A program made the position numbers and the translations under genes. 64,000 bases of DNA from Lactobacillus gasseri ATCC 33323 = JCM 1131 (lineage in GTDB: Bacteria > Bacillota > Bacilli > Lactobacillales > Lactobacillaceae). The stretch spans positions 558,001 through 622,000 of the forward strand of contig NC_008530.1 in NCBI RefSeq assembly GCF_000014425.1, read 5' to 3'. Of this stretch, positions 2,703 through 60,486 are shown one piece after another; within the stretch, counting starts at the first letter, position 1, and each line of letters starts with the position of its first letter. The notes beneath the pieces are model-generated. The model worked only from the letters and a program-made list of their open reading frames with translations, did no database searches and was not told where the DNA came from.

Positions 2703-3527
2703 TTAATTATTTTTTATAAATTGTTTTAGTTCTTTTTGAGAGAAGTATGAACCATAATCTTCAGTTAATTGTTTTAAAATGAAGTCATTGCTCGCATTCA
2801 GTTTTCTACTGAGCTTAATCATCTTCTTAATAGCATCAACCCGCTCTTCTTCTTTTGCAACATATCGCATATCATCAAGTTTCATTTGGTAATCCATGAG
2901 CTCTTTCCTTCTTTCTGGATTAGTTTTATATTTCTCAACATCGCTTTGTAACTTTTGAATAAAGCTATCATTTGTATTAATTTTACCACGCATTAGATCA
3001 AAAAAGCCTTGCAGACGCGGCGTGATTTCCCCTTTTGTTCCACTTGCATTAAGCAAAATCAGATTTTGACCAATATTTAATGGATCATGTCTAAATCCCT
3101 CAGTGCTCCAAGTAGTATTATAGCGATATTGGTCAAGCCCAAGCGGATCGGTTGGTAGAATTAAAATTAAATACGTAGTAGGCAAGTTGCGATAATTTTC
3201 ACCTTGCATAAATAGACTTTGATCCATCATTGAAAAATAATATCGCATCCGCTTTCCTAAAAAATCAGGCAGGGTCATTTGTAGTTCAATATCAAAGACT
3301 CGGCCTTTGTCATCTGTAGCATAGATGTCGGGGATAATACCATGCATTGCAGGATGAAACTTCAATCTTTTCTGTGTTTCAAAACCAGCAGTTTGAATAT
3401 GCAATTCAGGCGCAATTGCTCGTAAAAGGTCGCGGCAATTATTTCCTTGTTCCATAACCCAGCTAAAGATTGGATCAGCGGTGATATCAGCTTCATCAAC
3501 CCGTTTTTCTAATTCTTTTCTGTTCAT
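2703..3527 (-). CDS. Rpn-family recombination-promoting nuclease / PD-(D/E)XK transposase-like protein
   Basis: 274-residue member of the PD-(D/E)XK 'putative transposase' family (TIGR01784/PF12784; RpnA-E of E. coli are characterised members, reported to be DNA endonucleases that stimulate recombination). The nuclease core is visible as 'GIIPDIYATDDKGRVFDIELQM', where D, the E-L-Q segment and adjacent residues form the metal site. The C-terminal part is helical and charged ('RRKELMDYQMKLDDMRYVAKEEE'). Start is ATG 3527, with AGGAG just upstream on the minus strand. It stands alone, flanked by a terminator on its 3' side. No transposon ends were seen, so mobility is not supported. Confidence 0.8.
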   Translation of the reverse strand: MNRKELEKRVDEADITADPIFSWVMEQGNNCRDLLRAIAPELHIQTAGFETQKRLKFHPAMHGIIPDIYATDDKGRVFDIELQMTLPDFLGKRMRYYFSMMDQSLFMQGENYRNLPTTYLILILPTDPLGLDQYRYNTTWSTEGFRHDPLNIGQNLILLNASGTKGEITPRLQGFFDLMRGKINTNDSFIQKLQSDVEKYKTNPERRKELMDYQMKLDDMRYVAKEEERVDAIKKMIKLSRKLNASNDFILKQLTEDYGSYFSQKELKQFIKNN

Positions 3528-3603
3528 AGAAAACTCCTTTAAGTGTATTAGAGAAAGATCTCCAATCTTAATTACGCAAAAGGGAGTTTTATTTTTTTGA
3601 AAA

Positions 3604-3631
3604 GAAAAAGAAGATCAATCTGATCTTCTTA
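3604..3631 (-). terminator. Terminator of treC/treR transcript
   Basis: AAGAAGATCA / TGATCTTCTT hairpin with a 3-nt loop. Read on the minus strand it is followed by a T-rich tract, directly after the treC stop codon. Confidence 0.85.
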
Positions 3632-3633
3632 AA

Positions 3634-5292
3634 TTAAAGTTTGATTGCTAAAGCTTCATAAGGCTTTAATTGCAAGGCTAAAGGAAGAGAAGCAAGATTT
3701 TTATCGTAATTTTGAATTAAAATATGCCCCGCCTTATTTAAATATTCAGCAGGTATTTTAACTTCAGTTTCTTTGCCATAGAAGTTTGCAAATACTAAAA
3801 GTTTTTCATTAGAGTCATCTAAATAACGTTCATAGGCCATAACTTGTGGGTGTTCCATTAAAAATGGTTTGATGTGACCTTCAGAGATCAATTTTTCTGA
3901 TTTTCTGAGTTTAATTAATTTTTGATAGAAATTAAAAATTTCACCATCCAGTAGTTCTTTTTCAACGTTAATTCTATCTTGGTCTGTTGGCATAAGCCAA
4001 GGTTTGTGGTCACTAAAACCAGCATATTGAGAATTATCCCAGTGCATTGGAACCCTTGAATTATCGCGAGCTTTAGACTGAACAATTTCAAAAGCTTCTT
4101 TTTCATCAATACCTTTTTTGATTAATGCGTCATAGGCATTCAAAGCTTCGATATCAACATAATCCTTCATGGAAGTATAGTGAGGATCCATCATACCAAT
4201 TTCTTCGCCCATATAAATGTAAGGCGTTCCGCGTAGTAGATGAAGAGCAAGAGCTAACATCTCAGCAGATTTATTGTGATATTTTCCAGTATCACCGAAT
4301 CGATTTAATGCCCAAGGCTGGTCGTGATTATTCCAGAATAGAGCTTGCCAGCCGCCACCTTGATCAATCTTACTATTCCAGGTAAGCATAATATCTTTTA
4401 ATTTCTTAAAGTCAAAAGGCATCTTAGACCATTTTTCACCGTTTTTATAGTCAACTTTGAGGTGATGAAAGGTAAAGACCATTGAAAGCTCATGATCTTC
4501 TGGACGGGTATAAGCAATTGAATTTTCAATCGTAGTTGATGACATTTCTCCAACAGTAACTGATTCCGGGTCTTGACCGAAGGATTTTGCATTTAATTCT
4601 TTTAGATATTGCTGCACCACTGGTGTATCAGTATAAAGGGATTTTTCTTGCACCGGATCTGTTGAGTTAACTAAGGTAGTATCTTTCCCTGTAACGTTGA
4701 TTACGTCAAAGCGGAAGCCGTGAACTCCTTTATTACGCCAAAAGTTTACAACATCTATTAAGGCAGCGCGAACTTCAGGATTGTGCCAGTCAAGATCTGC
4801 TTGAGTTGGGTCGTAGAGGTGGAGATAGTAGTAATCAGTGTCGCCAAATTTTGACCAAGCTGGACCACCAAATTTTGATTGCCAGTTATTAGGTAGTTGT
4901 CCGTCCTTACCTTTTCTAAGATAAAAGAATTTTTGATACTTCTTATCTCCGGCTAGAGCTTTTTTAAACCATTCATGTTCTGTTGAGCAGTGATTTAAAA
5001 CCATGTCGAGCATCACATTAACGTTAATACTTTTTAATTTAGTTACCAATTCTTCGAAATCATCCATTGTTCCAAAACGAGGATCAATTTTTTTATAATC
5101 AGCAATGTCATAGCCGTTGTCATTTTGTGGAGAAACAAAAAATGGGTTAAACCAAATGAAATCTACATTTAGCTTCTTAATATAGTCAATTTTTTCAATG
5201 ATGCCACGTAAGTCGCCAATACCATCATTATTTGAGTCATAAAAAGATTTTGGGTAAATTTGATAAATTACTTTATTGCCTAAATTATTCAT
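3634..5292 (-). CDS. treC: Trehalose-6-phosphate hydrolase (alpha,alpha-phosphotrehalase)
   Basis: Cytoplasmic GH13 enzyme that splits trehalose 6-phosphate, made by the PTS during uptake, into glucose and glucose 6-phosphate. The 552 residues match the usual TreC/oligo-1,6-glucosidase length. Barrel motifs run in order: 'IYQIYPKSFYDSNNDGIGDL' at the N-terminus, 'DMVLNHCS', 'GFRFDVINV' (nucleophile Asp), 'VGEMSS' (acid/base Glu) and 'FWNNHDQPW' (transition-state Asp). The specific call to trehalose phosphate rests on its neighbours, treR and the trehalose PTS gene. It lies 14 bp downstream of treR, so both are read as one transcript. Confidence 0.93.
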   Translation of the reverse strand: MNNLGNKVIYQIYPKSFYDSNNDGIGDLRGIIEKIDYIKKLNVDFIWFNPFFVSPQNDNGYDIADYKKIDPRFGTMDDFEELVTKLKSINVNVMLDMVLNHCSTEHEWFKKALAGDKKYQKFFYLRKGKDGQLPNNWQSKFGGPAWSKFGDTDYYYLHLYDPTQADLDWHNPEVRAALIDVVNFWRNKGVHGFRFDVINVTGKDTTLVNSTDPVQEKSLYTDTPVVQQYLKELNAKSFGQDPESVTVGEMSSTTIENSIAYTRPEDHELSMVFTFHHLKVDYKNGEKWSKMPFDFKKLKDIMLTWNSKIDQGGGWQALFWNNHDQPWALNRFGDTGKYHNKSAEMLALALHLLRGTPYIYMGEEIGMMDPHYTSMKDYVDIEALNAYDALIKKGIDEKEAFEIVQSKARDNSRVPMHWDNSQYAGFSDHKPWLMPTDQDRINVEKELLDGEIFNFYQKLIKLRKSEKLISEGHIKPFLMEHPQVMAYERYLDDSNEKLLVFANFYGKETEVKIPAEYLNKAGHILIQNYDKNLASLPLALQLKPYEALAIKL

Positions 5293-5306: not shown

Positions 5307-6032
5307 CTAAAATTTAATCTTTTTTCTTCGAGCAAAATCAACAAACTTGAATTTATCAGGTCGATGATATGACAGAGTTAGTTCAAATTTAGTTGTATCA
5401 GCTAAATAATTTCTGCTTGCGACCAGCACTGCGAGTTCGTTATCTAGTTGAAGTAAATCTCGAATTCTTTGGTTAACTGTGCAGACAGAAATTTCTTTCG
5501 TTGCATAGGAAATTTCTAATTTTTCTTTATTTTCTAAATAATTATAAATAGAAGTTTTTGCAGCATCTTTTGGAAGTGAATTAATAGGAGGTGAAAGCAA
5601 ATAGTCGCAATCTAAGACATCAGCTTGTCCTTCTATTAATCGCAAGCGTTCAAGATGAAAACCGGCACTGTTTTTTTCTTCAGGAAAATATTTGATAAAG
5701 CCAGTAGGTAAATGTTCTTCTTTTTGTAAAAGTAAAACTTTTGTTTCCGCCTTAAGTCCTAATTGATTGTTCAATTCAGCGAAACTGCTAATTCCTGAAA
5801 TAGGAAAAGCGTAGCGATCAAGATTTAAAACTATTGAGCCTTTTCCGCGAATTTTTTGAATTAAGCCTAAGTCAGTTAAGCTAGTAAGTGCTTTGCGAAT
5901 TGTTTCTCTTGAAGCCCCATATAAGTCCATTAATTGATGTTCACTAGGGAGATATTCGCCAGGTTTATATTGTTGATGCTTAATTTTATCTACTAAGTCT
6001 TGAGCAATAGCACTAACTTTGGATTGAGCCAT
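5307..6032 (-). CDS. treR: Trehalose operon GntR-family repressor
   Basis: Transcription regulator of about 241 residues: an N-terminal GntR winged helix ('YKPGEYLPSEHQLMDLYGAS', 'TIRKALTSL') and a C-terminal UTRA effector domain, which in TreR binds trehalose 6-phosphate. A longer frame exists up to 6209, but the ATG at 6032 is preceded by AGGAGG at ideal spacing and gives the normal N-terminus MAQSKVSAIAQ. The divergent control region carries two matching palindromes, one across its own promoter and one across the treB promoter, so it should repress both genes and itself. Confidence 0.92.
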   Translation of the reverse strand: MAQSKVSAIAQDLVDKIKHQQYKPGEYLPSEHQLMDLYGASRETIRKALTSLTDLGLIQKIRGKGSIVLNLDRYAFPISGISSFAELNNQLGLKAETKVLLLQKEEHLPTGFIKYFPEEKNSAGFHLERLRLIEGQADVLDCDYLLSPPINSLPKDAAKTSIYNYLENKEKLEISYATKEISVCTVNQRIRDLLQLDNELAVLVASRNYLADTTKFELTLSYHRPDKFKFVDFARRKKIKF

Positions 6033-6063
6033 AAAAAATCCTCCTTTGTCTTTAATTATATAC

Positions 6064-6079
6064 ACTTGTTTAGACAAGT
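6064..6079. promoter_or_regulatory. TreR-like operator 1, overlapping the treR promoter
   Basis: Palindrome ACTTGT-TTAG-ACAAGT. It lies directly upstream of a minus-strand -10 (TATAAT, plus-strand ATTATA at 6055-6060), inside the spacer of the presumed treR promoter. The half-sites are identical to those of operator 2 at 6153. Confidence 0.8.
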
Positions 6080-6146
6080 AAAGAAAAACTTTATTATCTA
6101 CAAAATGCTTATTTAAAAGAAAAGTAAGCTTTTTCATAAAATAGTA

Positions 6147-6175
6147 TTGACAACTTGTACAGACAAGTATAGTAT
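6147..6175 (+). promoter_or_regulatory. treB promoter with TreR-like operator 2 in the spacer
   Basis: TTGACA at 6147-6152 and TAGTAT at 6170-6175 are 17 bp apart. The spacer contains ACTTGT-ACAG-ACAAGT (6153-6168), the same palindrome as operator 1. Bound repressor would block RNA polymerase. Confidence 0.85.
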
Positions 6176-6189
6176 TTAAGTCAAGATTA

Positions 6190-6204
6190 ATGAAAGCGGA
6201 TACT
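6190..6204 (+). promoter_or_regulatory. cre (CcpA) site downstream of the treB promoter
   Basis: ATGAAAGCGGATACT fits the consensus WTGNAANCGNWNNCW at every fixed position. It lies just downstream of the -10, where CcpA would block transcription when glucose is present. It also forms part of a longer TGAAAG/CTTTCA palindrome. Confidence 0.75.
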
Positions 6205-6225
6205 TTCAAAGAGGAGAATGAAATT

Positions 6226-8154
6226 ATGGTACAAGATACTACTAATTTATTAGCTCCAGCTACTGGAGCGGTTATTGCTTTAGCTAAGACTTCTGATCCA
6301 ATCTTTTCTCAGGGAACAATGGGAGATGGATTTGGATTAACTCCAACTGTTGGAAAGGTTGTAGCACCTGTCTCAGGAAAAATTAGTATGGTTGCTGATA
6401 CTAAGCATGCTGTCGGAATCGTCACTAATGAAGGACTAGAGGTGCTAGTTCACATGGGCGTTGATACAGTTGGTTTAAAGGGTGCACCATTCACGATTAA
6501 GATTGAAAATGGTCAAGAAGTTAAAGCTGGCGATGAAATTGCTGAAATGGATTTAGATGAAATCAAGGCTAAGGGATTAGATACAACAATCATGGTTTTG
6601 ATTACTAATTCAGCTGATAAGATTTCAGGACTTGATGTAACTGAAGGTGAGGCAGAAGCTGGTGAGGTTGTCGCAACAGCTTACTTAAAAACTTCAGAAA
6701 CAGAAGACACTTCAAGTAAAAAGTTATCCTATCCAGAATTGGCTGCTTTCATTATTAAAAATGTCGGCGGTAAAGATAATGTTAACAATGTAATTCACTG
6801 TATTACCCGTTTGCGTTTTTATTTAAAAGATGAAAGTAAAGCTAACGATGACGTTTTAAAAAATCAACGTGGAATTCTAGATGTGATGCATGCTTCTGGC
6901 CAATACCAAGTTGTAATTGGTAATGAGGTAACTAATGTCTTTGATGAAGTAGTCAAGCAATTAGGACCTTTAGATAGTGAAGCAGCTCCTGCTCCAGAAG
7001 ATGACGGTAAAAATCCAGTTTCAAAAGCTTTTGGTAATTTAATTGGATTTATCACTGGTTCAATGAGTCCAATTATCGGTGTAATTGCTGCAGCAGGTAT
7101 TATTAAAGGTATTTTGGCATTACTTACTCTGCCTCAATTAGGTAGTTTACTTAGTGTCAAGAGTACAGCCTATATTACTACTAGTGCAATTGCTGATTCA
7201 GCCTTCTTTTTCTTGCCAGTCTTAGTTGGTTATTGTGCAGCAAAGAGATTGAATTCCGATCCAATCATTGCAGCAGTAATTGGTGGTGTGCTTGTTTACC
7301 CTCAATTAGTTGAATGGGGTAAAGCTTTTAAGACGATGTTTGAAGTTGGTGGGATTAAGTTTGAGTTCTTGAACTATACTTACTCAATTTTCCCAATGAT
7401 TTTAGCTGCATGGCTTGCTAAAAAGTGTGAAGATTGGCTTAAAAAGTGGCTACCATCATACTTGCAAATGATTTTTATCCCATTAATTACTGTTTTAGTT
7501 GTATCTGCATTGACTTTAATGGTAACTGGTCCGATTATTCAAGGTGTTGCTAACGGGATTGCTGTCTTCATTAACTGGTTAGTTCACGCATCTGGTTGGA
7601 TCGGCGGATTCATTATTGGTGGATTTTACCAAGTATTGGTTATCTTTGGTTTGCACTGGGGTGTTGTTCCACTTGTTGCACAACAAATTGCCGGAACTGG
7701 TGAAAGTGCGTTAAACGCAATTATTTGTTCATCAATGATTGCTCAAGGTGCTGCAGTATTAGCTGTTGCTATTAAGTCTAAGAAAGAAGACTTAAAAGAA
7801 TTAGGATTTGCTTCAACTATTTCTGCAATGTGTGGTGTTACTGAGCCAGCCGTTTATGGTATCAGTTTAAGATATAAGAAAGTATTTATTTCTGGTTGTA
7901 TTGGTTCTGCATTTGGTGGCCTTGTTACTGGATTAATGCATGGAACAATGTATGGCTTTACTGGTGGATTAATTGGTTTTTCTTCATTCTTTAATCCAAA
8001 ACATCCAACTGATTTATCTAGTTTCTATACTTTCTTGATTGCTAGTGCTGTAACAATTGTAGTTTCATTTATCGTAACTTGGGTTTGGGGCTATAACGAT
8101 AGTATGGTTCAAGGCGCCAAGGTTGCAAAGAAAAAGAGACCTGGTAGTAAGTAG
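6226..8154 (+). CDS. treB: PTS trehalose-specific EIIABC permease
   Basis: Membrane carrier that phosphorylates trehalose during import to give trehalose 6-phosphate. Domain order from the N-terminus: IIA of the glucose type (residues ~1-155, phospho-His in 'LEVLVHMGVDTV', about H76), IIB (~165-255, phospho-Cys in 'IHCITRLRF', about C192), then the polytopic IIC (~280-630). IIA at the N-terminus differs from the common IIBCA order. ATG 6226 is preferred to the in-frame ATG at 6190 because of the AGAGGAG ribosome site, and because the extra codons fall in the cre site. It is divergent from treR/treC. Confidence 0.93.
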   Translation: MVQDTTNLLAPATGAVIALAKTSDPIFSQGTMGDGFGLTPTVGKVVAPVSGKISMVADTKHAVGIVTNEGLEVLVHMGVDTVGLKGAPFTIKIENGQEVKAGDEIAEMDLDEIKAKGLDTTIMVLITNSADKISGLDVTEGEAEAGEVVATAYLKTSETEDTSSKKLSYPELAAFIIKNVGGKDNVNNVIHCITRLRFYLKDESKANDDVLKNQRGILDVMHASGQYQVVIGNEVTNVFDEVVKQLGPLDSEAAPAPEDDGKNPVSKAFGNLIGFITGSMSPIIGVIAAAGIIKGILALLTLPQLGSLLSVKSTAYITTSAIADSAFFFLPVLVGYCAAKRLNSDPIIAAVIGGVLVYPQLVEWGKAFKTMFEVGGIKFEFLNYTYSIFPMILAAWLAKKCEDWLKKWLPSYLQMIFIPLITVLVVSALTLMVTGPIIQGVANGIAVFINWLVHASGWIGGFIIGGFYQVLVIFGLHWGVVPLVAQQIAGTGESALNAIICSSMIAQGAAVLAVAIKSKKEDLKELGFASTISAMCGVTEPAVYGISLRYKKVFISGCIGSAFGGLVTGLMHGTMYGFTGGLIGFSSFFNPKHPTDLSSFYTFLIASAVTIVVSFIVTWVWGYNDSMVQGAKVAKKKRPGSK

Positions 8155-54288: not shown

Positions 54289-54819
54289 GTGTATCAGATT
54301 GACTTAGGATTACAGCCAAATTTAAGGGCTACAGCTAAAAGGGTGGATAAGTTCCTGACTATTAATTTTCAGAGCTATCTTAATTTAGCTGGCTTACATC
54401 GTAATCAGCTTACAAGCCCTCAATTATCTTTTGCACCTGGATCGACAAACAAAAATGGCGTTGAAAAGAACTTTATTGACGAAGCACAAGACGATATTGA
54501 TATTGCTGATCCTGCTAGGAAGGTCTGTGCAGCGATTTATCGGACGATGGATAATTGCACTGATACATCATTAAAGCCTTACAGACGTATCTTAATTGGA
54601 ACTTACATTGACCAGTTACGTATCGTTGATGTAGCAGCTACAGTTAATTTGTCGACTAGGTCAATTGATACTAAGAAGATTAATGCTCAGTGTGAGTTCG
54701 CTGATAGATGGCTTTACTGGAAAAAATACTTTGGTGTTAATGATTTACCCGACTTAAGAGTTTTCAGTCAAAAGGTCAAAACAGTATGGCCGGATAAAAT
54801 TAAGATCCGGAAAAATTAG
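54289..54819 (+). CDS. ArpU-family late transcription regulator
   Basis: 176 residues; in Firmicute phages ArpU/RinA-type proteins close the early region and switch on packaging and structural genes. The C-terminal part has a sigma-like helix-turn-helix ('RILIGTYIDQLRIVDVAATV', 'NLSTRSIDTKKINAQCEFAD'). GTG 54289 follows GAGGGAG. Its position just before the non-coding region and the terminase genes fits. Phased 11-bp repeats begin 5 bp after the stop. Confidence 0.83.
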   Translation: MYQIDLGLQPNLRATAKRVDKFLTINFQSYLNLAGLHRNQLTSPQLSFAPGSTNKNGVEKNFIDEAQDDIDIADPARKVCAAIYRTMDNCTDTSLKPYRRILIGTYIDQLRIVDVAATVNLSTRSIDTKKINAQCEFADRWLYWKKYFGVNDLPDLRVFSQKVKTVWPDKIKIRKN

Positions 54820-55676: not shown

Positions 55677-55961
55677 ATGAAAGTTGAGACAGTTTCAATT
55701 AATAAGATTAAACCTTATGAGAACAACCCTAGAAATAATGATGATGCAGTTGACGCTGTAGCTAATTCTATTAAGGAATTTGGCTGGCAACAGCCCATAG
55801 TTGTCGATAATGGGGGGGTAATCATAGCTGGTCATACACGGTACAAGGCTGCTAAGAAATTGGGCTATAAAGAAGTTCCAATTGTGGTTGCAGATAGCTT
55901 CGATTACTGGCAAAGGTTTAATAACTGTGAACCTATTGTTGATCTTCATAAATATAAGTAA
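55677..55961 (+). CDS. Short ParB/Srx-fold nuclease-like protein
   Basis: 94 residues. It has a clear ParB N-terminal domain: 'INKIKPYENNPRNNDDAVDA', 'SIKEFGWQQPIVVDNGGVII' and the G-H-T-R box 'AGHTRYKAAKKLG'. Phage relatives usually continue into a helical or methylase domain after 'VPIVVAD'; here the frame ends after an unrelated 'SFDYWQRFNNCEPIVDLHKY' tail, so it may be a truncated gene. AGGAGTTAAGT precedes the ATG. It sits between the tRNA-like region and a second non-coding region. Confidence 0.72.
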   Translation: MKVETVSINKIKPYENNPRNNDDAVDAVANSIKEFGWQQPIVVDNGGVIIAGHTRYKAAKKLGYKEVPIVVADSFDYWQRFNNCEPIVDLHKYK

Positions 55962-56317: not shown

Positions 56318-56392
56318 TTCCATTCGTTTCAAAAAGTCAAGTCTTTTAATTAGGCTTGACTTTTTTATAATTATTTTTGAAACGAATGGAGG
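56318..56392 (+). promoter_or_regulatory. Attenuator-like nested repeat covering the next gene's ribosome site
   Basis: CCATTCGTTTCAAAAA (56320-56335) and TTTTTGAAACGAATGG (56374-56389) are a perfect 16-bp inverted repeat. Between them lies a terminator hairpin (AAAGTCAAG / CTTGACTTT with T-run). The right arm runs into GGAGG (56388-56392), the Shine-Dalgarno of the gene at 56402. The same A-tract can pair with either the terminator T-run or the outer arm. Confidence 0.75.
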
Positions 56393-56401
56393 CTAAATAA
56401 A

Positions 56402-57019
56402 ATGAATGTTTTTACAAATAATATTATTGATGGTTATATAAGATGGAATAAAAACAATATGATTAGCAAAAATTTTACATGCGGTTACTGTGGAGCGTAT
56501 GTTTCTAGTGATAAAGGAATGCCTCTTGTAGATCAAGGTAGAGTAAATCCGACAGAAAGTATTGGTGTGTATATATGTACTAATTGTTATATGCCTACTT
56601 TTATTTATGATGATATTCAAGTACCAGGAAATAGATATGGGGTAGCAGTTAGTGGAGTTCCTAAAGATGTAAACGATGTTTATGAAGAAGCTAGAAGTTG
56701 TTACGGTGCAAATGCTTTTACTGGAGTAGTTCTATTGTGCAGAAAGTTATTAATGCATGTTGCTGTAGATTTAGGGGCTAAAGATAATCTTAAATTTGTT
56801 GAATATGTAAATTATTTAAATGAGAATCATTTTGTAAGTGTTAAAAGTCATGATTGGGTTGATCAAATTCGAAAATACGGCAACGAAGCAACTCATGAAA
56901 TACAAGTTAATACTAAAGAAGATGCACAAAAGATTATAAAGTTTTGCGAAATGATATTAAAAATGAATTATGAATATCCTTCGGAGATAAATGATTCGAA
57001 TGATGGGAAAAATAATTAA
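56402..57019 (+). CDS. DUF4145-domain protein with zinc-ribbon start
   Basis: 205 residues. A zinc-ribbon-like pair (C-G-Y-C near residue 28, C-T-N-C near 60) precedes the DUF4145 helical domain ('EARSCYGANAFTGVVLLCRK', 'WVDQIRKYGNEATHEIQVNT'). DUF4145 occurs in restriction and other defence proteins, but its biochemical role is unknown. Its ribosome site is inside the inverted repeat described just upstream, and no promoter was seen after the terminator, so expression should need read-through. AT-rich composition and position suggest an accessory (moron) gene. Confidence 0.8.
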   Translation: MNVFTNNIIDGYIRWNKNNMISKNFTCGYCGAYVSSDKGMPLVDQGRVNPTESIGVYICTNCYMPTFIYDDIQVPGNRYGVAVSGVPKDVNDVYEEARSCYGANAFTGVVLLCRKLLMHVAVDLGAKDNLKFVEYVNYLNENHFVSVKSHDWVDQIRKYGNEATHEIQVNTKEDAQKIIKFCEMILKMNYEYPSEINDSNDGKNN

Positions 57020-57182
57020 TTTTATAATGACTAGTCGAAAGGCCAGCTCTTTTTTTATGAAGGCTTTTATGAAATTTTTAGCAGTAGTTCTAAAATATTT
57101 ACCATTGTTGGACTTAGTTAGCTTAAATTTATATTCATCTCAAAGAATAAATCCTATTATTTCGAAATTGATTTTTTTATAA
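56991..57182 (+). CDS. Possible 63-residue hydrophobic protein
   Basis: Overlaps the end of the DUF4145 gene. It has a basic start and a hydrophobic middle ('FFMKAFMKFLAVVLKYLPLL'). GGAG lies 4 bases before the ATG, closer than ideal. It could be a membrane partner of the DUF4145 protein or a chance frame. Confidence 0.3.
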   Translation: MIRMMGKIINFIMTSRKASSFFMKAFMKFLAVVLKYLPLLDLVSLNLYSSQRINPIISKLIFL

Positions 57183-57201
57183 TTGTTATTGAGGTGATTT
57201 T

Positions 57202-57858
57202 ATGACTGCTTTAAATGCTGAAATTAGTCCTAATAGTATTATTTTATCTATGGATACTTTAGCATCGAGAAAAAACAACAACGGAAAAACTATTCCATCT
57301 TACTTTACTCAAAAATTTGAATATTATCCTTTTACTCAAAGCATATTGTGTGGAACTGGAGATTTTTCAATTATTAGACTAGCTTTTGATAGATCTAGAT
57401 CAATTTTATCGAAAGAAGTTAAAACATTTAGTCTAATAATTCGAGATGTTTTAAAAAATAATATTGAAAAAGTAAATACAGACACAACAATTTATATCTT
57501 CGGCTTTGATGAAGATATGAATACACATGCTTATGCTCTTAGGAGCACTAATAAATTTGGTATTCAGGAGATCGCAAGTTATTCAAATCCTAATTGGATA
57601 TTAAAGCCTCAGTGTGAAGAAGCGATAGATTATTTGCTTAATAGCGATTCAAATAATAAAATTCATATATTCAAAGAACTAATGAAAATCGAAAAAAATA
57701 TTGACGACAAAAAAACTAAAGAAAGGGTTGGGATTGGTGGTCAAAATATTTTAATTAATTTAGTAGCTAAAGATGGAGAGATATTATCTAGCATTAATAT
57801 AATTGATGAATTTGAAGATTACGATAAACAATATAAGTTTTGTCTGGAAAATTTATGA
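57202..57858 (+). CDS. Ntn-hydrolase (proteasome beta/HslV)-like prophage protein
   Basis: 218 residues of no family I can name with certainty. The N-terminus, MTALNAEISPNSIILSMDTL, follows the HslV/proteasome pattern: Thr right after Met, two strands, then Asp at position 17 once Met is removed. It continues with a Lys before a strand ('QKFEYYP'), the 'ILCGTGDFSIIRLAFDRSRS' segment (compare the A-G-G-T-A-D-A helix of HslV) and a late 'VGIGGQNILINLVAKDGE' (compare I-G-S-G-G). This suggests an N-terminal-Thr amidohydrolase or a non-catalytic relative. GAGGTG lies 6 bases before the ATG. Follows the DUF4145 gene and ends at a terminator. Confidence 0.6.
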   Translation: MTALNAEISPNSIILSMDTLASRKNNNGKTIPSYFTQKFEYYPFTQSILCGTGDFSIIRLAFDRSRSILSKEVKTFSLIIRDVLKNNIEKVNTDTTIYIFGFDEDMNTHAYALRSTNKFGIQEIASYSNPNWILKPQCEEAIDYLLNSDSNNKIHIFKELMKIEKNIDDKKTKERVGIGGQNILINLVAKDGEILSSINIIDEFEDYDKQYKFCLENL

Positions 57859-57863
57859 TTTTT

Positions 57864-57890
57864 AAGTCAGCATAAGCTGACTTTTATTTT
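57864..57890 (+). terminator. Terminator before the packaging genes
   Basis: AAGTCAGC-ATAA-GCTGACTT, a perfect 8-bp stem with tetraloop, then TTTATTTTG. It separates the accessory genes from the terminase operon. Confidence 0.9.
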
Positions 57891-57918
57891 GTCTAAATTA
57901 AGGTGGTGGTGAGATGTT

Positions 57919-58440
57919 TTGGAACGGAAGTTAACAACTAAACAAAAAATATTTTGTGATGAGTATATAAAGTCTGGGAATGCTAAAGAGGCAGCCATTA
58001 AAGCGGGATATTCTCCAAAAACTGCTAAATCAATTGGTCAGGAAAACCTGACTAAACCTGACCTGAAAGCTTATATTGACGCTAAAATGGCTGAAATTGA
58101 GTCACATAAGATCGCTGATGCTAAAGAAGTGTTGGAATTTTATACTAAAGTACTCCGAGATGAAGTTGTTGAAGAAGTTCCAATGTCTACTGCTGATGAT
58201 GTGGTTGTAATCAAAAAGAAGCCTTCTTTCAAGGACAAAATTACAGCTTCAAAAGAAATTATGAAGCGCTATCCATTAGTCGATCCTATTGAGAAACAAA
58301 AACTTCAAAAACTTATTGCAGATACTCGTATATCGGAAGCAAAGGCTACAGTTGCTGAACGATTAGGCAATGAAAGTGATGACAAGCTTGATGAACTTAT
58401 GGATAAGTTGATAAAAGCAAGTGAAAAGTCCCAAGAATGA
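57919..58440 (+). CDS. terS: Terminase small subunit
   Basis: 173-residue DNA-recognition subunit of the packaging motor. The N-terminal HTH domain 'LTTKQKIFCDEYIKSGNAKE' with 'AAIKAGYSPKTAKSIGQENL' is the Terminase_2 (PF03592) signature, and the rest is helical oligomerisation. It starts at TTG 57919 behind GGTGGTGAG. A homing endonuclease gene now separates it from terL. Confidence 0.9.
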   Translation: MERKLTTKQKIFCDEYIKSGNAKEAAIKAGYSPKTAKSIGQENLTKPDLKAYIDAKMAEIESHKIADAKEVLEFYTKVLRDEVVEEVPMSTADDVVVIKKKPSFKDKITASKEIMKRYPLVDPIEKQKLQKLIADTRISEAKATVAERLGNESDDKLDELMDKLIKASEKSQE

Positions 58441-58528: not shown

Positions 58529-59260
58529 ATGAATAATAATATAGAAATTTGGAAAGACGTTCAAGGCTATGAGGGGCTTTATCAGGTGTCAAATCTTGGA
58601 AGAGTAAAAAGTTTGTATAAAAATACTAAGATTCTTATGCCTAGATTAAATAACCGTGGGTATCAGTATGTAATGTTTTTTAAAGACAAAAAATATAAGC
58701 ATTTTTTAGTTCATAGATTAGTAGCACAAGCTTTTATCCCTAATCCTAATAAGTTACCTCAAGTAAATCATATTGATGAAAATAAAGAAAACAATTGTAT
58801 TAGCAATTTAGAATGGTGTACAAACATTTATAACAATCTATATCGTGGCAAAGTTAAAAGAGCTGGAATAAAGAACGGTATATGTGTTGCTCAATATAAT
58901 TTAAAAGGCAAATTAGTTAAAGTGTGGAATTCTGCGCATGAAGCTTCTAAAGAAGGCTACAATGCTAGCCACATAAGAGAGTGTTGCTTAGGACAAGCAC
59001 AAACTCATAATAATTATATGTGGCGATCAGTCAGTAACAATCATGTAATTAAAAAGATTGAGCCATATCAAAAAACAAGTTTTACTAATCGTTCAGATTT
59101 AAGTGAAAACATTGGTCAATATGATATTGATGGCAATTTGATAAAGGTTTGGCCATCAATAAGAGAAGCTTCAAGAAAAGGATTCGATCGTAGCAGTATT
59201 TCATATCATATAAAAAATAAAAAACCATATAAAGGTTATATTTGGAATTTAATGAAATAA
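58529..59260 (+). CDS. HNH homing endonuclease with NUMOD4 and two NUMOD1 motifs
   Basis: 243 residues: NUMOD4 ('[20 protein letters not shown]', ~6-26), HNH_3 nuclease core ('[12 protein letters not shown]', '[20 protein letters not shown]', ~70-105), then two NUMOD1 DNA-binding motifs ('[20 protein letters not shown]' and '[20 protein letters not shown]'). A selfish gene sitting between terS and terL. It ends 2 bp before the terL start codon, so the endonuclease message continues into terL. Confidence 0.93.
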
Positions 59261-59262
59261 TA

Positions 59263-60486
59263 ATGTCATTAAACGATTTATTTACAAAAAAACAACAAAA
59301 GGTACTTCAATCTTATTTGAATGATGATTGGAAGTATCTTTTTTTAATTGGTGCGGTTCGTTCGGGTAAAACATATATTTCAAATTGGATGTTTTTACTT
59401 GAGTTAAAACGAGTTGCAAAGTTAGCAAAGACAAATAATGTTAAAAGACCGATTTATATATTAGCTGGGTATTCTAGCAATTCAATTAATACAAATATTA
59501 TTGCGTCAATTGAGAACGAGTTTGGTATAAATATACCAGTTGATAGACATGGTCATTATCATTTGTTTGATGTAGAAATTGTTCCGGCTTATACAGGTTC
59601 AATACGTGGTATTGGTTCTATTCGTGGAGCTACTGCGTATGGTGCTTTGATTGATGAAGGAACGCTTGCAGATCAGGGCGTTTTTCAAGAAATAATTAAT
59701 CGTTGTTCTATTGAAGGTGCAAGAATTGTGGTTACTTCAAACCCTGATGCACCAACAAATTTTATTAAGACTGAATATATTGATAATCATGACCCAAAAG
59801 CGAGAATCAAAGTGTTTAATTTTACAATCTTTGATAATACTTTTTTATCTAAAGATTACGTGGATGCTTTAGTGGCTGCTACACCTTCTGGAATGTACAC
59901 AGATCGAACGATCTATGGTAAGTGGGTTAGTGCCGAGGGGCAAATATTTAGTGATTTCAATATTGAAACTATGACTATTACAACTGATCAACTACCAGAA
60001 ATGGTTAAATACTATGCCTCGATTGACTGGGGTTTTGGTAAAGGTCATAAAGGAGTTATTCAACTTTTTGGTGATGATGAAAATGGAACAAGTTATTTGA
60101 TCAAAGAATGGGCACATGAGCATAGATTCATTGATTATTGGATAGATGTTGCCAAAGAAATTAAACAAAAATATGGGAATATCGTCTTTTGGGCTGATTC
60201 AGCTCGTGTTGATTATGTGAATCAAATGCAAGCTAATGGTATCAATTGTATTAATGCCAATAAAAATGTATTGAGTGGTTTGGAATTTGTAGATAGTTAT
60301 TTCAAACAAGGAAAGTTAATCATTAATAAAGATGAAGCTGATAATTTATTAAACACTATTTTCAATTATGTTTGGGACGATAAGAAAGAAGCTCCTCTAA
60401 AAGAAGATGATGATAGTGAGGACTGCTTAAGATATGGAATTTATTCAGAACATTATGAAGGAGGGGGGTTCGTGCCTTGGAATTAG
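59263..60486 (+). CDS. terL: Terminase large subunit
   Basis: ATPase and nuclease of the packaging motor, 407 residues. Walker A-like 'LIGAVRSGKTYISN' near residue 30, Walker B region 'GALIDEGTLA', coupling 'IVVTSNPDAP', and RNase H-type nuclease start 'YASIDWGFGKGHKG'. ATG 59263 has no clear Shine-Dalgarno of its own and follows the endonuclease stop by 2 bp, so translation probably depends on re-initiation. Confidence 0.92.
   Translation: MSLNDLFTKKQQKVLQSYLNDDWKYLFLIGAVRSGKTYISNWMFLLELKRVAKLAKTNNVKRPIYILAGYSSNSINTNIIASIENEFGINIPVDRHGHYHLFDVEIVPAYTGSIRGIGSIRGATAYGALIDEGTLADQGVFQEIINRCSIEGARIVVTSNPDAPTNFIKTEYIDNHDPKARIKVFNFTIFDNTFLSKDYVDALVAATPSGMYTDRTIYGKWVSAEGQIFSDFNIETMTITTDQLPEMVKYYASIDWGFGKGHKGVIQLFGDDENGTSYLIKEWAHEHRFIDYWIDVAKEIKQKYGNIVFWADSARVDYVNQMQANGINCINANKNVLSGLEFVDSYFKQGKLIINKDEADNLLNTIFNYVWDDKKEAPLKEDDDSEDCLRYGIYSEHYEGGGFVPWN

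Follow-up and report, generated by a model that had tools for sequence, protein, structure and literature searches.

A Lactobacillus gasseri prophage gene labelled as terminase encodes a putative stand-alone peptidase with a proteasome-like fold

The window analysed here is a 64,000-nt stretch of the 1.89 Mb genome of Lactobacillus gasseri ATCC 33323 (G000:C1:558001-622000), and positions without a contig prefix refer to it. The gene under study, 57202-57858 (hereafter the Ntn gene), lies in a prophage between a transcriptional activator gene and the gene for the terminase small subunit (terS), and its product is identical (100%) to a protein of L. gasseri phage KC5a. The region contains the following features:

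54289-54819, + strand: transcriptional activator (phrog_248), left border of the slot
56319-56390, + strand: nested hairpin leader, 17-nt perfect arms around a terminator-like hairpin (56331-56365)
56356-56380, + strand: 25-nt repeat, copy 1, upstream of the DUF4145 gene
56402-57019, + strand: DUF4145 (HEPN clan) protein, Pfam E 2.1e-10, variable slot occupant
56991-57182, + strand: 63-aa ORF, KC5a orf32 region, phrog_32324 (unknown function), hydrophobic as judged by eye
57011-57971, + strand: DNA block 94.9% identical to L037 (L. johnsonii ATCC 33200) and IMG/VR contig L040, apparent moving unit
57168-57192, + strand: 25-nt repeat, copy 2, 88% identical, upstream of the Ntn gene
57191-57196, + strand: ribosome-binding site GAGGTG of the Ntn gene, judged good and clear
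57202-57858, + strand: Ntn-hydrolase gene, 218 aa, identical to the phage KC5a orf33 product
57205-57207, + strand: Thr2 codon (Thr1 once Met is removed), presumed nucleophile
57253-57255, + strand: Asp18 codon (Asp17 equivalent)
57313-57315, + strand: Lys38 codon (Lys33 equivalent)
57352-57360, + strand: Gly-Thr-Gly 51-53 codons, probable oxyanion-hole turn (Gly47 in the proteasome-like family) before helix H1, assigned by position
57864-57883, + strand: terminator-like hairpin directly 3' of the Ntn gene
57919-58440, + strand: terminase small subunit, right border of the slot
59242-60486, + strand: true terminase large subunit (phrog_2, E 4.8e-42; Pfam Terminase_3 only below cut-off)

We take the activator to be of the ArpU type. 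The original prediction had placed an Ntn-hydrolase relative next to a DUF4145 protein; a real DUF4145 gene is indeed nearby, but the 63-aa ORF, which overlaps the end of that gene, separates the two. Promoter-like matches numbered 20 against 23.4 expected from shuffles and no promoter is therefore claimed. At 55677-55961 Pfam recognises a ParB N-terminal domain on its own (94 aa, E 3.1e-13), in a frame that stops shortly past the domain, and an HNH endonuclease gene with NUMOD domains (58529-59260), similar to homing genes, lies between the genes for the small and large terminase subunits. Over 21,360 bp, the segment 42641-64000 matches G000:C1:640727-662086 at 100% identity, and the genome carries two tandem prophages about 40,086 bp apart that are identical over the compared part. 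The source strain is known for tandem prophages.

Four of the five matching phage records, among them KC5a (DQ320509 orf33, 'terminase large subunit A') and NC_005354, as well as phrog_13702, label the Ntn gene as terminase large subunit, the fifth record naming it Orf221. This label is wrong. If taken at their word, the database labels would make the gene a terminase subunit or a head-maturation protease, a reading that can hardly be true: the real terminase large subunit is encoded at 59242-60486, the fold of the Ntn protein is proteasome-like and not that of a terminase ATPase/nuclease, and the gene is also present on plasmids. A role in head maturation was rejected because of this plasmid carriage and because two of the loci (L043 and L100) have their own downstream ClpP-like ORF, recognised by eye. 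The analysis thus corrects a database error that had spread over a whole PHROG family.

Sequence searches did not place the protein in any known family. Pfam yielded no informative match for 14 members scanned, PF00227 not being among the hits, NCBIfam gave nothing meaningful for eight members, and PADLOC gave no hit beyond chance for the two members scanned, the window protein (best match Cas13a, E 0.048) and L091. Searches of PDB sequences returned chance hits only, with no sequence-profile link to Anbu. When the family and its subsets were aligned by hhalign with the host HslV and with phage HslV-like proteins, the probability was 0.1-0.3%; as the family alignments are shallow (Neff ~3), the missing profile link is weak evidence. 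In the control, the phage HslV-like set was linked to HslV at 98.2% (six rows, two of them in the wrong frame) or 97.5% (three clean rows), a comparison favourable by choice, these rows having been found via HslV similarity. The three-row set aligned with the Ntn family at 0.2%. Among themselves, the Lactobacillus, Paenibacillus and gammaproteobacterial subsets were linked at 98.7-99.8%.

AlphaFold2 run without an alignment gave a pLDDT of 40, and with nine family sequences and no templates a pLDDT of 89.4 and a pTM of 0.87. In the latter model six strands (4-9, 12-18, 20-24, 30-35, 39-42 and 47-52) lead into a first helix pair (55-65 and 73-85); after four more strands come a second pair (139-147 and 153-171), two long strands and a C-terminal helix. 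This element order (S-S-S-S-S-S-H-H-S-S-S-S-H-H-S-S-H) is the proteasome order, and the helix pairs H1-H2 and H3-H4 flanking the beta-sheet core are present in the predicted model. Foldseek found 618 PDB matches at E <= 0.001, the best 50 of which were all proteasome or Anbu entries (probability 1.00, identity 7-16%, rmsd 4.5-8.9), with moderate query TM-scores of 0.47-0.66. The highest query TM-scores among the matches listed were those of Anbu chain 5nyg_B (0.66) and proteasome chain 8g6f_M (0.65). A search against predicted viral proteins gave four matches at E <= 0.001, one of them spurious by TM-score. The original prediction of an Ntn-hydrolase relative is borne out by the agreement of the model topology with proteasome beta subunits and Anbu and by the Foldseek matches, neither another fold nor an unconserved residue 2 or Asp having been obtained. 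The predicted proteasome-like Ntn fold of the window protein is regarded as close to certain.

That prediction had started from the N-terminus of the product, which begins Met-Thr and in which, once Met is removed, Thr is residue 1, Asp residue 17 and Lys residue 37. All three are present in the ORF, as are G-T-G-D (residues 51-54, Met counted) and I-G-G-Q (178-181). By itself, however, the Thr/Asp/Lys spacing in the window sequence is no more than chance would give. In a set of 110 distinct ORFs (>= 100 aa) taken from the window and four other stretches of the same genome, the combination of Thr/Ser/Cys2, Asp18 and a Lys within residues 31-40 was expected 0.94 times and seen once, in ORF 57202-57858 itself. 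The case therefore rests on the relatives and on the structure. Thirty-two copies were read, giving 20 distinct translated copies, 13 with Thr and seven with Ser as residue 2; Asp18 and the GTG at 51-53, which is placed before H1, are kept in 20/20 and Lys38 in 19/20, at identities to the window protein that fall to 23%. The homologues thus bear out the proposed conservation of Thr2, Asp18 and the Lys, with Ser as the substitute for Thr, and the conserved Thr1/Asp17/Lys triad is close to certain.

In a 14-row alignment (A8), S115 and P136 were also invariant and IGG was found in all 13 rows reaching that far. The index of the Lys, with Met as zero, was 33 in six rows, 37 in five and 32, 34 and 36 in one each. 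Residue equivalence to the proteasome is assigned from order and spacing. A8 left out the 99%-identical siblings, L010 (identical to the L044 protein), L123 (the L101 element), the split copy L005/L042, whose first 90 residues entered the 20-copy tally, and L093, L132, L133 and L098, all four of which were counted in that tally; the split copies L097 and L116 are in neither set, and the truncated L099 contributes its first 167 residues only. A Shine-Dalgarno-like sequence judged by eye precedes the Met-Thr or Met-Ser start in most of 22 loci, many of them near-identical siblings, and in L102 it fits a TTG, which gives Met-Thr, better than an upstream ATG. The gene appears to be under purifying selection, as the dN/dS of the sole unsaturated pair was 0.131; seven other pairs gave 0.08-0.29 with saturated dS and two were not computable.

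Proteasome alpha subunits are inactive relatives, according to Fuchs et al. 2021 (PMC8665760), and the open plasmid copy L098 lacks the Lys, as a catalytically dead structural or scaffold protein might. Such a reading is nevertheless very improbable, given T/S2 and D18 in 20/20 and K38 in 19/20 distinct copies at identities down to 23%. The L098 copy (6001-6636) has Q in place of the conserved Lys and may be regarded as a natural Lys-less variant; by eye, its Lys stretch looks like the product of two compensating frameshifts.

The claim that no phage system of this kind has been described was too strong. Phage-borne proteasome homologues are already known: the paper of Fuchs et al. (PMC8665760), who described 22 new proteasome-like families, discusses PPH and AAH as phage-borne, and its table puts a phage mark on PPH, CPH, AAH, PMI-4 and DAH and none on FC1-5 and GPH. 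Phage records annotated as HslV family also exist. Like PPH and AAH, the window protein is a phage-carried proteasome-like protein of unknown function, but it has 218 aa and contains H2 (73-85), whereas PPH is described there as a protein of about 140 residues without this helix. The phage HslV-like sequences, which may include AAH or PPH members, link to HslV (97.5-98.2%) and not to the Ntn family (0.1-0.3%).

The Ntn family could be one of the 22 families, such as GPH or FC1-FC5, and new only as a phage gene. By description only, these match both host groups, GPH the gammaproteobacteria and FC1-5 the Firmicutes. FC1-5 and GPH carry no phage mark in the PMC8665760 table, although GenBank records of KC5a and Lj928 annotate the gene and the Ntn family is phage-borne, and PPH differs in length and in the lack of H2. 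The identity with a catalogued family is therefore seen as a minority possibility, and the missing phage marks argue weakly for a place outside the 22. A literature search found no paper tying a phage Ntn hydrolase or proteasome homologue to defence and none describing the family, which does not prove its absence in print.

Compared with the cellular enzymes, the window protein resembles Anbu in the fold (query TM 0.63-0.66 to eight 5nyg/5nyj chains among the matches listed) and in having no propeptide, Anbu being described without one and with a long coiled-coil helix in PMC8665760. It differs in its 7-11% identity and in a C-terminal helix of 10 residues in the model. With the 20S proteasome it shares the fold (query TM up to 0.65) and, in 6 of the 14 aligned members, the exact Thr1/Asp17/Lys33 spacing; it lacks a propeptide and a recurring second subunit gene, and its identity to the chains listed is 10-16%. 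HslV/ClpQ, which the host itself encodes at G000:C1:918109, has the same triad spacing; the differences lie in the hhalign probability of 0.1-0.3% and in the Ntn gene having no recurring ATPase neighbour in an all-against-all comparison of the neighbours.

A Thr/Ser nucleophile may also serve in a peptide ligase or a small-molecule amidase. The ligase connectase belongs to the proteasome-like family (PMC8665760), and no partner gene recurs beside the Ntn gene. Connectase, however, is described there as lacking H1-H2, and the window model has both helices (55-65 and 73-85), which makes this reading improbable.

The 94.9%-identical DNA block shared with L. johnsonii prophage DNA (L037) and the IMG/VR contig L040 has nearest flanks with no match or at most 71% identity, apart from one 84-bp match (78.6%) 3.5 kb upstream, and the neighbouring terminase small subunits are only remotely alike. 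What appears to move is a single gene and not a module. The all-against-all comparison of neighbours in 20 loci (up to 5.5 kb upstream and 6 kb downstream, less at contig ends) revealed no gene in a constant position common to the three lineages (Lactobacillus, Paenibacillus and gammaproteobacterial), only isolated cross-lineage matches of a recombinase, a helix-turn-helix-like ORF and two others (E 1e-9 to 1e-4). As no neighbour recurs across lineages, no conserved ATPase companion is evident from this comparison of the neighbours with one another.

The original prediction of a two-gene module with the DUF4145 protein did not hold. In the window and in KC5a the two genes are near neighbours between hairpins, but the window's DUF4145 was found in only 4 of 25 related loci (L038, L041, L042 and L118) by phmmer at E 1e-3. 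By the same criterion it was not found in L037, L039 and L040, whose Ntn protein is about 99% identical; this threshold would miss a remote DUF4145 and failed to pick up even the Ntn gene of L093, L096 and L098. Furthermore, a different protein occupies that position in L040, and L113 has no ORF >56 aa between the activator and the Ntn gene. A functional pair with the HEPN protein is thus highly improbable, and a structural, packaging or DUF4145-paired role is contradicted. DUF4145 is assigned to the HEPN clan in PMC3710099. The protein encoded at 56402-57019 matches PADLOC PD-T7-4 (E 2.9e-11) and is a candidate anti-phage gene itself.

A near-identical leader ending in GGAGG precedes two unrelated genes, that of DUF4145 in the window and a SieB-labelled one in L040 (leader at about 5210-5290), and in L113 a complete hairpin, seen by eye, stands directly before the Ntn gene. 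Together with the 25-nt repeats, this arrangement looks like a slot built for swapping accessory genes beside a constant Ntn gene. The L040 neighbour is a 174-aa protein without a PADLOC match; the PHROG labelled SieB superinfection exclusion covers exactly its length, so that the label may have its origin in the cluster of this protein itself. The upstream neighbour in L101 matches PADLOC PDC-S64, a candidate defence model (E 1.9e-12), with an Apea-type HEPN model below the cut-off. No defence model matched the upstream neighbours of L043 and L044, which look like membrane proteins by eye, or that of L102. Thus, among six different upstream neighbours scanned, two (the window DUF4145 and the L101 protein) matched PADLOC at E < 1e-10. 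What is left of the defence idea in the original prediction is a hypothesis on the slot of the gene and not on a fixed pair with DUF4145.

The slot is also compatible with the main rival, in which the same enzyme would act in the lytic cycle, cutting a host protein after late-gene activation for host takeover or counter-defence. The activator gene and terS, between which the Ntn gene lies in the window, share its strand and have homologues on either side of it in several Lactobacillus loci; a position beside late genes fits a lytic function. The terminator-like hairpins before the cassette and after the gene, however, suggest separate transcription, and the plasmid and island copies have no lytic cycle; we consider this reading doubtful.

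The distribution of the gene is wide but sparse. In IMG/VR, seven distinct loci were found with one profile (A1) and 13 with another (A3), the two sets overlapping. Plasmid relatives were found on a Paenibacillus plasmid (32% identity to the window protein) and, in Enterobacterales, whose copies include conjugative plasmids, on IncX7 plasmids from Yersinia ruckeri and from E. coli (27%) and on an IncHI2 Enterobacter plasmid (26%). A search of 72,556 plasmid records with the IncX7 protein gave 147 matching records at E <= 1, of which 137 reached at least 60% identity. The IncHI2-type gene was present in 8 of 5,426 complete E. coli genomes (six chromosomal places and two plasmids), and a distant search gave 10 genomes, those eight included. 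Whole-genome sets gave 4/397 for the window's family, 3/395 for its order, 3/398 for its class and 4/245 for the family of G948; these sets overlap, the window genome being counted in the first three and G948 and G728 in both the class and the G948-family hits. The G728 copy is split by a stop.

In the window's family, 48 of the 397 genomes matched at E <= 1, but only four clearly (G000, G242, G171 and G275, E <= 1.1e-39), the next match being at 6.6e-4. Of 13 weaker matches that were inspected, six are proteins that we take to be uracil phosphoribosyltransferases, three are other proteins and four gave uninformative frames; the remainder were set aside by E-value alone. Weak order-level matches (E 0.002-0.09) were left out.

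Three of the six E. coli chromosomal copies were viewed (L131, L132 and L134), and each lies at one end of an integrase-linked island beside a truncated ygiQ. The island integrase is recognised by Pfam, and the same integrase and gene occur on the IncHI2 plasmid L096. The island layout resembles that of GInt elements. Split or truncated copies were found in different elements (L099, L042/L005, L116 and L097) and, although some may be sequencing errors, they are consistent with a dispensable cargo gene.

Taken at about 60% probability, our preferred reading is a stand-alone Thr/Ser peptidase carried as accessory cargo, probably for defence or superinfection exclusion. Its parts differ in strength: the window protein is very probably an active enzyme, a protein is its likely substrate, and defence or exclusion as the role is a tentative choice at slightly worse than even odds, favoured because part of the company that the gene keeps in the slot resembles anti-phage and superinfection-exclusion genes. 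Methionine aminopeptidase would remove Met and expose Thr1, or Ser1 in relatives, which Asp17 and the Lys33 equivalent would activate for attack on an amide bond; a specific protein would be the most likely target. The hydrolase would act without a propeptide and, as no recurring partner gene was found, apparently without a dedicated unfoldase. The gene would behave as a moron, picked up singly by phages, plasmids and integrative elements and placed, in Lactobacillus phages, between the late-gene activator and the packaging genes, with the other occupant of the slot changing. Its product would most likely shield the lysogen or host, possibly the element, from competing phages.

A bolder version, speculative and rather unlikely, would see here an uncatalogued mobile-element branch of the proteasome, spread over Firmicutes and Proteobacteria, that provides a one-gene, ATPase-independent immunity protease. 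Its Thr1/Ser1 would cut, or ligate, a trigger protein of phage or host origin, and the proteasome fold would thereby serve as a superinfection-exclusion system. The family adds to the proteasome-like fold a deeply divergent and sequence-isolated branch, found on phages, conjugative plasmids and integrative elements and not as host housekeeping. Should the enzyme work without an ATPase and the slot serve immunity, the proteasome fold would have been recruited for competition between phages.

The PAPS-reductase gene beside the IncHI2 copies was considered as a partner and dropped, as the IncX7 copies have no annotated PAPS reductase nearby and a search at E 1e-4 gave no homologue around the other loci. 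In IncX7-type plasmids the second gene upstream is annotated as a MipZ-type ATPase. In L102, an ORF judged by eye to be FtsZ/TubZ-type-like (3485-4624) suggests a plasmid-like Paenibacillus element, and the Paenibacillus plasmid has an annotated PAPS-reductase-family gene about 4.6 kb downstream of its Ntn gene.
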